DNA of 64,000 nt. Source: Nitrospirales bacterium. GTDB lineage: Bacteria > Nitrospirota > Nitrospiria > Nitrospirales > UBA8639. This document shows, piece after piece, positions 33,552-38,260 of this stretch (positions within the stretch are counted from its first letter, which is position 1; every line of letters begins with the position of its first letter). The stretch is from positions 1 to 64,000 of the forward strand of contig JAJDBS010000065.1 in NCBI GenBank assembly GCA_029261235.1. The letters run 5' to 3'. The position numbers and the translations under genes were made by a program. The notes below the pieces were generated by a model. That model had not been told where the DNA came from and did not search any database. It saw only the letters and a list, made by a program, of their open reading frames with translations.

Positions 33552-36242
33552 CTATTGCTTTTCATCCAGAAACGCATTGACTGATTTCTGAATCACACGG
33601 TGTATCTTGCTCTCCATATCTCCAGAAGAAATTTTGTCACCCTGCGCATTGGTCACATAAAACACATCGACTACTTGATCTAACCGTGTCCCAATTCTGG
33701 CCATATGGATTGACAGGTCTAACTGCACTAAGGATTTGGATAATTCGAATAAGAGGCCAGGTTTGTCATCTGCAAAGACATCAATTACCGTATAGGAATC
33801 AGAGGCCTCATTGTCAATGAGAACTTCTGTGGGACGACGTCCAGTGGGAAACTGTCGGCCAAAATTCATCCGGCGGTGGCGTTCCAATACTTCATCAACC
33901 AAAGACTCTTCTTGCACAACTGCCTGAATTTCTTGAGCGACCTCACGCAATCGATAGTCGGAGGGCTGCCCGCCACAGTCAGAATCATTGACAGAGAACA
34001 CATCTAGCACGGTGCCATCTTCCAGGGTCATAATCTGCGCATTCAGAACGTCAAGCCCTAATGCGGCAAAGACCCCGGTCACTTGCATGATGAGGCCGGG
34101 CTTGGCTTTCTCTCGAGTGATGAGCACATATTCTGAAATGCCCAATTCCCCATTGAAACGCCCCTCAACATACGTGGGCCGAGAACACAAACTTCTGATA
34201 GCGAGGAGATGCGCAGCCATTTGCTCGATTGGCGTGGAAACAATATACGAATCGGGGAGTTGTGAGAGCTGTCCGTCAACCCACGAAGACCAATCAAACT
34301 CCGGGGTTTCGCTTCCCTGAGTCGTGAGACATTCAAGGAGGGCTCTGCGAGTCTCAGGCTGGAGGGCAGCTTCTACTTTATCAGTCTTAGTCGACTCCTG
34401 CCCCTCAACCATTGCTTCGTATGTTCGGGAATAGAGTTCTCCTAACAATGATTCTTTCCATTTGGTCATCACATCTGGCCCGACTGCCGAAATATCCGCG
34501 ACAGTGAGAATAAACATTTTCTGGAGAACGTCGACCGTTTTCATTTTCTCGGCAAAGGCCAGAATAATTTTTGGATCGCTTAAATCTCGACGAAAAGCCG
34601 TATGCGACATGACTAAATGATGGAACACGAGATAGGCCAGCACCTCTCGGTCTTCCTGAGATAAATCCAGTCGATCCGCCATTTTATGAGCAATTTCCTG
34701 TCCAATTTTACTATGATCCCCAGGTCGACCCTTTCCCAAATCATGCAATAATACCGCTAAATGCAGAATGTCTTTGTCTTGAATCTGTCGATACACTTCA
34801 CCAACAATCCCTTGATCCTCTTGTAATCGTTCTGCTTCTTGCACCGCTAACAGGCTATGCTGATCCACCGTGTACTTATGATACTGATTGAACTGCATGA
34901 GCCCTCGAACTCGAGCAAAAGCCGGCACCAGCTTTTCCAGTAGACTGGCTTGGTGCATGGCTTCTAACGTGTGTGCAATTCGCCCTGGCCGATTGAGAAT
35001 GCCAAGAAAAAGTTCACTGACTTCCTGGGTATGAAATTGTTCATTCAGGGTGGTGGTTAAATATTGTGATAGCTCATTCAACACTTTGGAATCCACGGGA
35101 ACGGCCTGATCATGAGATAGCTCAAATAATTTCAGAAGTAGGACAGGGCTTTCTAGGACGCCATGGAATTTCTCTGAGGGAATTGTGAGTTGATGATCTT
35201 CTATTCGAAAATTGCCTTCCAACAACGCATTGGGCCACCATCGCCGCATCCGCTCAACCAAAGTTTGTTCCTGTGCGTGAGCAAGAAACCGGATACACCG
35301 ATCGTGCAATCCCGTGGTATGCAAAAAATACTGCTGCATGAATTGTTCAACGGCCAATAAATTCTGACGATCTGTTAAACCATAAATTTCTGCGAGCCGA
35401 ATTTGATCATCAAAGGTGAGAATATCCTGCGCTCTTTTTGCCTCAAAATGGAGAAAGCTACGGAGTCGTAACAGAAATTCTTGCGCCTCTTGAAGCACTT
35501 GATAGTCCTGAAAGGCCAGGATGCCTCGATTGGCAAGCTCTTGAATAGTTCCTGCCCCAAAGCGCACGTGACCAACCCATTGAATCAAATGCACATCACG
35601 TAAGCCGCCCTTACTTTTCTTAATATTTGGTTCGAGTAAAAAGATTGTTCCGCCGAATTTTGCATATTCCCGCTGCCGTTCTTCAATCTTATCCAGTACA
35701 AATTGTTTGGCCTGTCGTTTGAGAACTTTCCTCTCAAATTTTTTCATGAATTCCTGGAAGACTGCAGCATTCCCTCCCAGAAATCTTGACTCCATGAGAG
35801 AGGTACAGGCAGGTAAATCGGATTCTCCAATCTCCAGACACTCCTCGATAGATCGAACACTATGTCCCACTTGAAAGCCCAAATCCCACAAATGATGGAA
35901 GACACCCTTGGAAATGATATCAGCGATCTTCGCTTGAGTGCCTTGTGTGAGAACCATGACGTCGATGTCTGAATAGGGTGCTAACTCTCGTCGGCCATAT
36001 CCTCCCATCGCCACTAAGCAACATTGCTGTGAACTGATTCGAATCTCAGCATTTCCCTCTTGAATGACTTCGCGAAACCGAGTAATCAACAGACCATCCA
36101 TGAAATCAGAAAAGACCTGGACGATTTCCCCTCCTGTGGCCCCTTCTCTCAATCGTTGATGCATCACCTCTCGTTGCTCCTGCAATCCCTGTGAAGCAAC
36201 AGCAGAAGATTGCATCGAGGAAATGTGATTACCTGGATTCAT
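33552..36242 (-). CDS. glnD: Bifunctional [protein-PII] uridylyltransferase/uridylyl-removing enzyme
   Basis: The 896-residue protein has the full GlnD layout: nucleotidyltransferase motif GGYGRRELAPYSDIDV at 80-95, the helical NTase-associated region, an HD hydrolase domain with HDLGKG at 500-505 and supporting His462, and two C-terminal ACT domains (about 710-790 and 825-896) that sense glutamine. It uridylylates PII under nitrogen limitation and reverses this when glutamine is high. It is 44 bases behind nadE and probably in the same transcript, so it may share nadE leader control. The downstream side is the dead IS30. Confidence 0.95.
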   Translation of the reverse strand: MNPGNHISSMQSSAVASQGLQEQREVMHQRLREGATGGEIVQVFSDFMDGLLITRFREVIQEGNAEIRISSQQCCLVAMGGYGRRELAPYSDIDVMVLTQGTQAKIADIISKGVFHHLWDLGFQVGHSVRSIEECLEIGESDLPACTSLMESRFLGGNAAVFQEFMKKFERKVLKRQAKQFVLDKIEERQREYAKFGGTIFLLEPNIKKSKGGLRDVHLIQWVGHVRFGAGTIQELANRGILAFQDYQVLQEAQEFLLRLRSFLHFEAKRAQDILTFDDQIRLAEIYGLTDRQNLLAVEQFMQQYFLHTTGLHDRCIRFLAHAQEQTLVERMRRWWPNALLEGNFRIEDHQLTIPSEKFHGVLESPVLLLKLFELSHDQAVPVDSKVLNELSQYLTTTLNEQFHTQEVSELFLGILNRPGRIAHTLEAMHQASLLEKLVPAFARVRGLMQFNQYHKYTVDQHSLLAVQEAERLQEDQGIVGEVYRQIQDKDILHLAVLLHDLGKGRPGDHSKIGQEIAHKMADRLDLSQEDREVLAYLVFHHLVMSHTAFRRDLSDPKIILAFAEKMKTVDVLQKMFILTVADISAVGPDVMTKWKESLLGELYSRTYEAMVEGQESTKTDKVEAALQPETRRALLECLTTQGSETPEFDWSSWVDGQLSQLPDSYIVSTPIEQMAAHLLAIRSLCSRPTYVEGRFNGELGISEYVLITREKAKPGLIMQVTGVFAALGLDVLNAQIMTLEDGTVLDVFSVNDSDCGGQPSDYRLREVAQEIQAVVQEESLVDEVLERHRRMNFGRQFPTGRRPTEVLIDNEASDSYTVIDVFADDKPGLLFELSKSLVQLDLSIHMARIGTRLDQVVDVFYVTNAQGDKISSGDMESKIHRVIQKSVNAFLDEKQ

Positions 36243-36286: not shown

Positions 36287-38089
36287 TTACTTCTTGGGAG
36301 CATACTGATTCGTGATCGGCATACGTCGGTCTTTGCCCAATGCTCTCGCGGTAATTTTTATTCCGATAGGCGATTGACGACGCTTGTACTCACTTCGATC
36401 AACCAGCTGGACCACCTTTTTCACCACCTGCATCGGATAGCCGGATTTCACAATGGTCTTTTTTGAACGATTTGCTTCTACATAGGCTTGTAAGATTGCA
36501 TCTAGTTGGGAGTATGGCGGCAAGGAATCTTGGTCCGTCTGATCTGCTTTGAGTTCAGCGGACGGAGCTCGTGACTGAATTCGTTCGGGAATACTGATAG
36601 GATCAAAGCCTCGAACATGATTATCACTCCTCCATCGAGATAGTTCATACACACGCATCTTTGGAAGATCTTTGATCACTGCAAAGCCACCGGCCATGTC
36701 TCCATACAACGTGGCATATCCCACACTCATTTCACTTTTATTCCCAGTTGTCAGGACAAGGTAACCAAACTTATTCGATAGAGCCATGAGAAGCGTCCCA
36801 CGAATTCTCGCTTGTAAATTTTCCTCGGTGGCATCCACAGCACACCCTTTAAACAATGGTCGCAATTCTCGAAGGTAGCTTTTGAAAAGAGCCATAATTG
36901 AAAGATTTATGAGCTCAATGCCCAAGTTCTTCGCTAGGGCGTTTGCATCTTTTTTACTTGCAGAAGACGTATAGGGAGATGGCATCATGACGCCCACAAC
37001 CTTGGAGGCACCAAGCGCATCTCGAGCGATCAGCGCCGTTAGGGCTGAATCAATTCCACCACTGATCCCCACGACAACCTTGGAGAACCCGTTTTTCCTC
37101 GTATAATCTCTGACGCCTAACACCAATGCACGATAAATGGCCTCTACTTCAGTCATGAGGGGTGAGGGTCTTGCCACTGGAGGGGATGCGATCTCTGAGT
37201 GCGTCGATCTCCACGGAATGCGAATAAAAGAGATCCCTCGTCTCTTTTGAAGGAGGGTGACCGATGCGGTTATAGCGACTTGACTCATGGGCAGGCAGGA
37301 TAGAGGCAAATCGGCGAGTAAGAGGTCTTCCTCAAACGCCTTAGCACGTGCAATGAGTTCTCCGCGAGGGTTGAAGATCAGGCTATTTCCATCAAAGACT
37401 AATTCATCCTGCCCTCCGACCATATTGGTATAGCTCACGAACACTCCATGTTCTTTCGCTCGCTCAGCCAACATACGTTGTCGAGTGCGTGTTTTCCCAA
37501 CATGATAAGGAGACGCATTGAGATTTAGTATCAGCTGGGCATGTCCATGTTTCACTTGTGTCTGGGCGGGTCCATCGGCGAACCAAATGTCCTCACAAAT
37601 GTTGAGACCAATTCGAACTGATCCTAGACACACGATCGGATTCCCCAACCCCGCTTGAAAATAACGCTGTTCATCAAACACCCCATAATTGGGTAACTTG
37701 TGTTTGGCGTAGCTCCCAACCAGGCGGCCTCGCGTGAACACCCAGGCCACATTCACGGGCTTCTGGCTATCTGGAAATTCGCCTGATATGGATAGAGGAT
37801 GCGTTTTCAATAGACTTGCTTGAGGACGCCCCGCACTACCCACCACCGCCACAATACCGACAGAGGCTTTGGCAATCCGATCGCGCATACGTTGAATATC
37901 ATGAAGAAACTGAGGCATGAGGAGCAGATCTTCTGGAGGATATCCGGACACGGCTAACTCAGGGAATACGACGACATCCGCCTTGGCCTTCTTGGCTTCT
38001 CGAATGCTTCGACAAATCGCGCGAGTATTTCCCTCAAGATCACCAACGACCGCATTCATCTGCACCATGGCTAATCGTAGTATCATCAT
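36287..38089 (-). CDS. nadE: Glutamine-dependent NAD+ synthetase
   Basis: The 600-residue enzyme joins a nitrilase-type glutaminase domain (Glu44 in FPELAVSGY, Lys129 in the KHKLPNYGVF segment, Cys165 in NICEDIW) to an ATP-dependent NAD synthase domain with the PP-loop SGGIDSA at 344-350 and KSEMSVGYATLYGDMAGGF. It makes NAD from deamido-NAD using glutamine nitrogen. Two adjacent ATGs begin the frame. The only Shine-Dalgarno candidate (GAGGA) is inside the 3' arm of a hairpin that ends seven T residues before the ATG. Upstream is the GAF-ANTAR gene; downstream is glnD. A link between NAD synthesis and nitrogen status is plausible. Confidence 0.95.
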   Translation of the reverse strand: MMILRLAMVQMNAVVGDLEGNTRAICRSIREAKKAKADVVVFPELAVSGYPPEDLLLMPQFLHDIQRMRDRIAKASVGIVAVVGSAGRPQASLLKTHPLSISGEFPDSQKPVNVAWVFTRGRLVGSYAKHKLPNYGVFDEQRYFQAGLGNPIVCLGSVRIGLNICEDIWFADGPAQTQVKHGHAQLILNLNASPYHVGKTRTRQRMLAERAKEHGVFVSYTNMVGGQDELVFDGNSLIFNPRGELIARAKAFEEDLLLADLPLSCLPMSQVAITASVTLLQKRRGISFIRIPWRSTHSEIASPPVARPSPLMTEVEAIYRALVLGVRDYTRKNGFSKVVVGISGGIDSALTALIARDALGASKVVGVMMPSPYTSSASKKDANALAKNLGIELINLSIMALFKSYLRELRPLFKGCAVDATEENLQARIRGTLLMALSNKFGYLVLTTGNKSEMSVGYATLYGDMAGGFAVIKDLPKMRVYELSRWRSDNHVRGFDPISIPERIQSRAPSAELKADQTDQDSLPPYSQLDAILQAYVEANRSKKTIVKSGYPMQVVKKVVQLVDRSEYKRRQSPIGIKITARALGKDRRMPITNQYAPKK

Positions 38090-38096
38090 AAAAAAA

Positions 38097-38126
38097 CGTC
38101 CTCTGTCCCGAAAGGAACTGAGGACG
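38097..38126 (-). promoter_or_regulatory. Terminator-like hairpin masking the nadE Shine-Dalgarno
   Basis: On the reverse strand the arms CGTCCTCAGTTCC and GGGACAGAGGACG pair over 13 positions with one mismatch and one G-T pair around a TTTC loop, followed by seven Ts and at once the nadE ATG. It has the form of an intrinsic terminator, yet its 3' arm carries GAGGA, the only ribosome-binding candidate, ten bases from the ATG. Either premature termination or translation block would lower nadE expression. Confidence 0.6.
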
Positions 38127-38136
38127 CCATTGTCCT

Positions 38137-38191
38137 ACTCAAATATCTCAGTGAGCTGGTGACATCATTGTCGGCCATTTGAGTTATTATA
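38137..38191 (-). promoter_or_regulatory. Candidate nadE promoter and inverted repeat
   Basis: A perfect -10 TATAAT lies at 38186-38191 (reverse strand) with a weak -35 (GTGAAG, 17-base spacing). Next to it, ACTCAAAT and ATTTGAGT (38177-38184, 38137-38144) form an 8-bp inverted repeat enclosing two small hairpins, GACA-ATGA-TGTC and CTC-ACT-GAG. If transcription starts at about 38179 the outer stem cannot form fully in RNA, so the repeat may be a DNA operator, or transcription may come from upstream. Confidence 0.4.
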
Positions 38192-38260
38192 CTCGTGCCA
38201 GATCGTCTCTTCACTCTACCCCCAGCCGCGCTAACCTCCACCTATACAGCATGACTCATG

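Follow-up and report, generated by a model that had tools for sequence, protein, structure and literature searches.

A probable ANTAR-target RNA in the leader of the NAD synthetase gene nadE in Nitrospirales

We analyzed the leader of nadE, which encodes glutamine-dependent NAD synthetase, in a 64,000-nucleotide stretch of a Nitrospirales contig (JAJDBS010000065.1; hereafter, the window), and conclude that it is very probably an ANTAR-target RNA, through which an ANTAR protein would exert transcription antitermination of nadE, extending to glnD. RNA targets of ANTAR proteins consist of two hairpins with hexaloops that carry A1 and G4, and the 3' arm of the second hairpin is shared with a terminator (PMC3369931, PMC8934654). 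Computation established this anatomy in the leader, together with its conservation and covariation, a single ANTAR protein and a linked set of targets. The mechanism is already known; NAD synthetase as an ANTAR target is previously unreported. In PMC3369931, nitrogen genes are already listed as main ANTAR targets, and NAD synthetase is absent from the target genes given in its main text; among the papers searched, none reported ANTAR control of any Nitrospira gene, or of nadE anywhere. Across relatives of the nitrite oxidiser Nitrospira, this switch recurs in front of nadE and of several genes for nutrient uptake.

The leader occupies the gap between the ANTAR gene and nadE (Table 1). Most relatives have a sigma70-like promoter upstream of P1 (TTGAAN or TTGACA, a 16-18 nt spacer, and TATAAT or TACAAG), with -35 elements at this promoter reading TTGAAG, TTGAAC or TTGACA; the window's own -35 is weak and was not reported by a strict consensus promoter scan. 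A1 and G4 fall at 38169 and 38166 in the loop of P1, the stem of which is a 3-bp core plus TGG/CCA, and at 38131 and 38128 in the loop of P2. The linker between the two hairpins measures 24 nt in the window and 21-26 nt across the family. Because positions 38121-38126 belong both to the 3' arm of P2 and to the 5' arm of the terminator (CGTCCTC), the two structures are mutually exclusive. The leader folds significantly better than its dinucleotide shuffles (z between -2.65 and -2.8; between 0 and 3 of 200 shuffles did as well). In predicted folds of the growing transcript, P1 and P2 appeared first, at lengths of 60 and 78 nt, whereas the terminator took the place of P2 after its own 3' arm had been transcribed (-20.4 vs -29.7 kcal/mol, the antiterminator energy being that of the 78-nt transcript fold).

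These features agree to a large extent with the original prediction. The two small upstream hairpins that it described are real and correspond to P1 and P2 of an ANTAR target, and the only GAGGA of the leader lies in the 3' arm of the terminator hairpin, as it had stated. The predicted 13-bp hairpin, followed by seven Ts at the nadE ATG, is correct in hairpin, T-run and position, but has 12 pairs and an A.A mismatch instead of 13 uninterrupted pairs. A GGAGG also occurs, but far upstream, near the stop codon of the ANTAR gene.

Table 1. Features of the nadE locus in the window and the second ANTAR element of the same genome
Feature	Position	Strand	Details
Gene order		minus	aroC, aroB, 417-aa ANTAR gene, 171-nt gap, nadE, glnD
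GAF-GAF-ANTAR regulator gene, 417 aa	38261..39514	(-)	Pfam GAF_2 2e-44 (two copies), ANTAR 5.2e-20
Probable -35 element GTGAAG	38209..38214	(-)	17-nt spacer to -10
-10 element TATAAT	38186..38191	(-)	promoter internal to ANTAR-nadE gap, from sequence; distance to P1 same in most relatives
8-bp inverted repeat ACTCAAAT/ATTTGAGT	38177-38184 / 38137-38144		around P1
P1 hairpin	38157..38177	(-)	core GAC[AATGAT]GTC at 38161-38172, TGG/CCA extension
P2 hairpin AGGAC[AATGGC]GTCCT	38121..38136	(-)	5 bp stem
Intrinsic terminator hairpin CGTCCTC-a-GTTCC[TTTC]GGGAC-a-GAGGACG	38097..38126	(-)	12 pairs and one A.A mismatch
GAGGA, likely nadE Shine-Dalgarno	38099..38103	(-)	in terminator 3' arm, 9 nt from ATG
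T7 run of terminator	38090..38096	(-)	abuts nadE start codon
nadE start codon ATG	38087-38089	(-)	
nadE, 600 aa	36287..38089	(-)	glutamine-dependent NAD synthetase; Pfam CN_hydrolase 8.3e-32 and NAD_synthase 1.5e-73
glnD, PII uridylyltransferase	33552..36242	(-)	Pfam; 44 nt after nadE
Second own-genome ANTAR element (L180)	C40, 29824-29880	minus	terminator and T9, before BBP2/OmpL-like porin gene

The nadE leader could be read in 44 genomes of the family. Of these, 41 retain P2 together with the terminator that overlaps it, and 26 of the 44 have strict-form P1 as well; P1 is degenerate in 15 leaders that retain P2. T7-T9 directly follow the hairpin in every leader with P2, GAGGACG or GAGGGCG is retained in nearly all relatives, and A1 and G4 of both loops are invariant in a 24-row nadE alignment. 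Three genomes of genus g2 (L036, L125, L128) have kept the ANTAR gene beside nadE and lost P2 and the terminator, suggesting that the switch is dispensable there.

The two-hairpin fold was recovered unaided by RNAalifold. The nadE set contains 14 double-change cells, compared to 6.0 in shuffles. In a mixed alignment of nadE, porin, FNT, sigma54 and NMT1 leaders, 93% of cells are paired and 30 are double-change cells, compared to 9.4 in shuffles (0/500 reach 30) and at most 13 in slid controls. Most of the covariation derives from P1, as P2 is almost invariant; likewise, the terminator helix exhibits little covariation beyond shuffles because its arm is nearly invariant. The search for compensatory changes in relatives that was suggested at the outset thus returned conserved pairing, with changes in P1 far above shuffles.

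The ANTAR domain (PF03861) is located at the C-terminus of the regulator (aa 356-407), scores 71.4 bits against a Pfam cut-off of 27.3, and matches PdtaR (1s8n), EutV (6wsh) and NasR (4akk). Exactly one ANTAR protein was detected in each family genome (49/49), the regulator is the only ANTAR match in the window's genome, and the ANTAR gene lies directly upstream of nadE in 30/30 loci first fetched. The contacts of EutV with the flipped G4 and with the stem were taken from its structure (PMC8934654). In our alignment, the loop-contact residues R142, K143, K149, E160, M172, N173 and R175 of EutV are identical in the window's ANTAR; Y164, which stacks, is replaced by F, the residue also present in PdtaR, and K147 by R, both conservative replacements, and R168 and R177 are Q and S, respectively. 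The conservation of these RNA-contact residues suggests that the protein binds P1 and P2 and prevents termination.

With respect to the signal, glutamine or the nitrogen/carbon balance would be a reasonable candidate, since glutamine is a substrate of NadE and a signal to which GlnD responds. With formate/nitrite-transporter genes among the targets, the chief alternative would be nitrite or nitrate. Among solved structures, the one nearest in sequence to the first GAF domain is the PtsP/EI-Ntr GAF (3ci6, 6e-23), which in E. coli binds or senses glutamine and 2-oxoglutarate (review PMC13104625). Given this resemblance, a nitrogen-status signal for the GAF-GAF-ANTAR protein is our best guess.

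The mechanism that we infer, including RNA binding, antitermination, ligand and direction of regulation, would proceed as follows. RNA polymerase, expected to start near 38178 and possibly also reading in from the ANTAR gene, would make P1 and then P2. Without a bound, active ANTAR dimer, the rest of the hairpin would displace P2, and the terminator would form and stop transcription at the T7 run before the nadE ATG. Active GAF-GAF-ANTAR would instead bind the A1/G4 hexaloops and hold P2 closed, so that no terminator forms and nadE, then glnD, are transcribed. As the 3' arm of the terminator is also the nadE Shine-Dalgarno, the open terminator would free the ribosome site as well, providing a putative second lock. 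Starting so close behind nadE, glnD is probably on the same transcript and probably switched on together with it; the nadE-glnD order is also seen in L037, L038 and L039. The proposal of cis control over nadE and, by position, glnD is supported by this analysis.

To locate other sites, whole-genome searches were performed with covariance models built from nadE leaders (R1) and from mixed targets (R2). R2 was built from some of the sequences that it finds. In the window's genome (~83% complete), only two sites stood out in the model search (E = 6.6e-9 and 3.3e-8, followed by a match at E = 5.8): one is the leader of nadE, and the other precedes a BBP2-type beta-barrel porin gene on a different contig (L180; Table 1). 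The P2 loop of the latter, GATGGA, has G at position 1, not A. A P2-terminator pattern search of this genome identified the same two sites, and zero when read backwards. In the family, a T-run directly follows P2 in all 40 further R2 matches examined, and the genes downstream of R2 matches are mostly BBP2-like porins, followed by sigma54 activators and formate/nitrite transporters. Elements with 7-nt P2 loops (e.g. AATGGGC) precede the formate/nitrite transporters (L183, L184, L212, L255, L256, L263), and 7-nt loops are also found before the NtrC/NifA-like sigma54 activators (L201, L235-L243, L257, L265, L267), which are targets in most of genus g2 and some other genomes; regulation might cascade from the ANTAR protein via these activators to sigma54 promoters. 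In one genome, the gene of an NMT1/NrtA-like substrate-binding protein is preceded by two tandem units, each with element and terminator (L198, ~2200-2400). The start codons of the porin, FNT and sigma54 targets are located tens to hundreds of nt downstream of the terminator. Weak R1 matches (L199, L202-L207, L209-L211, L213-L215) have no T-run and look like chance, and were not counted as targets.

Across a phylum-wide sample of 346 genomes, every match at E<=1e-4 fell within the same order, Nitrospirales, in two families. The targets of the second family include nadE too; there, its start codon lies further from the terminator, and the ANTAR gene is not always adjacent (2 kb from nadE in L042; outside the fetched upstream sequence in L045). 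Beyond Nitrospirales, the arrangement of GAF-GAF-ANTAR gene (50% identical), promoter, P2/terminator and then nadE is repeated on a Deltaproteobacterium-labelled contig (L105). Furthermore, a GAF-ANTAR gene lies directly before nadE in Omnitrophota (L089, 2196-3001; L115, 2221-3001), and in L047 (1-480) a REC-ANTAR gene precedes nadE by 9 nt; in these three loci outside Nitrospirota, the short ANTAR-nadE gap contains no P1/P2. Judged by sequence, the link between ANTAR proteins and NAD synthetase appears to recur beyond Nitrospirota.

The leader is structured, and metabolite riboswitches typically regulate a terminator ahead of a biosynthetic gene; such a riboswitch might sense NAD(H), glutamine or nicotinate mononucleotide and act on the terminator without the help of a protein. 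The original prediction likewise implied that the RNA itself senses NAD, glutamine or nicotinate nucleotides, but this is not supported here, and we regard a riboswitch as extremely improbable. No Rfam 15 family reaches its gathering score in the whole window, consistent with the earlier remark that the leader resembles neither NAD-I nor NAD-II, and no riboswitch family matches the leader even at E<=10, the best permissive hits being chance matches to snoRNA and miRNA models. Only ~90 nt and two tiny hairpins precede the terminator, leaving hardly any room for an aptamer, and the conserved positions are exactly the ANTAR loop positions plus P2/terminator. Moreover, the same element stands before porin, FNT, sigma54-activator and NMT1-type genes, which an NAD ligand would not explain. 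On the strength of the Rfam results and of the other targets, we rejected the riboswitch; the adjacent gene encodes the presumed partner, a protein.

From its position just after the ANTAR gene, the hairpin could also be read as an ordinary intrinsic terminator for the aroC-aroB-ANTAR transcript, in which case nadE would be expressed from its own promoter further on and the small hairpins would be incidental. However, both P1 and the terminator come after the conserved promoter, and the T-run reaches right up to the nadE start codon; nadE transcripts from this promoter must therefore cross the terminator. Both the P2 hexaloop and P1 are conserved with covariation, and nadE of the second family retains the element without an adjacent ANTAR gene (L042, L045); we give this account almost no weight. 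Regulation could, alternatively, be confined to translation, with ANTAR binding or the hairpin opening or closing the Shine-Dalgarno and termination not being the regulated step. Such an arrangement would suit a Shine-Dalgarno inside the 3' arm of the terminator, and in actinobacteria an overlap with the RBS or start codon is seen in ~37% of predicted ANTAR RNAs (PMC8164766). It is nevertheless very unlikely in view of the T7-T9 after the hairpin in all leaders with P2, and the porin, FNT and sigma54 targets retain P2, terminator and T-run far from their start codons, which points to termination as the shared step.

Antitermination by an ANTAR protein places the leader beside the dual-hairpin antiterminators of eut/EutV in E. 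faecalis, nasF/NasR in Klebsiella and amiE/AmiR in Pseudomonas. It has in common with them the two small A1/G4 hexaloop hairpins, the P2 3' arm shared with an intrinsic terminator, an ANTAR protein encoded nearby and several nitrogen-related targets. The original prediction of a cis-acting RNA with a terminator that hides the Shine-Dalgarno is supported, but a new RNA class is not, as the leader shows nearly all the features by which ANTAR targets have been defined in the literature. Compared to these systems, the regulator is GAF-GAF-ANTAR rather than REC-, NIT- or AmiR-type, the terminator 3' arm doubles as the nadE Shine-Dalgarno, and some sister targets have G1 or 7-nt P2 loops. The linker of 21-26 nt exceeds that of E. 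faecalis eut leaders, which measures 5-12 nt and at 14 nt already impaired induction (PMC3369931). The window's 24 nt fall within the 2-25 nt accepted for actinobacterial ANTAR RNAs (PMC8164766). The RBS-overlapping members of that group resemble the leader in lying where ribosomes bind the gene that follows; most of these RBS-overlapping RNAs are without a terminator (PMC8164766), whereas here terminator and Shine-Dalgarno form one arm. With the NAD-I and NAD-II riboswitches, the leader shares RNA control of NAD metabolism genes, but it has no Rfam match, a presumed protein partner and no aptamer.

Taken jointly, these observations may be read, tentatively and with considerable doubt, as an order-wide Nitrospirales switch at the RNA level. 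One GAF-GAF-ANTAR protein, sensing nitrogen status via its PtsP-like GAF (as glutamine/2-oxoglutarate or a nitrogen oxyanion), would link NAD synthesis and PII signalling with the porin and with the uptake of nitrite; nadE would be doubly locked, a single RNA arm serving as terminator and as Shine-Dalgarno blocker, and NAD synthesis would be a general ANTAR target. The circuit is testable, comprising one regulator, one RNA motif and a short target list (nadE-glnD, porin, formate/nitrite transporter, sigma54 activators and NMT1/NrtA-like protein). It would extend ANTAR control from nitrogen uptake and breakdown to NAD synthesis by a glutamine-using enzyme, and it offers a sequence signature for spotting targets in metagenomes of comammox bacteria and nitrite oxidisers.

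The 8-bp inverted repeat noted earlier upstream of the terminator exists, but is present only in the window and its nearest relative. In other relatives, the flanks around P1 pair no better than shuffled flanks, and the left arm of the repeat straddles the predicted transcription start; for these reasons, it is probably not a conserved part of the leader. With only the nearest relative sharing it and no excess pairing elsewhere, we rejected the repeat as a functional part. In L033 (G022), the ANTAR-nadE gap contains several ~90-nt direct repeats (GCGACCTGTTATCATC...), inserted upstream of the nadE leader.
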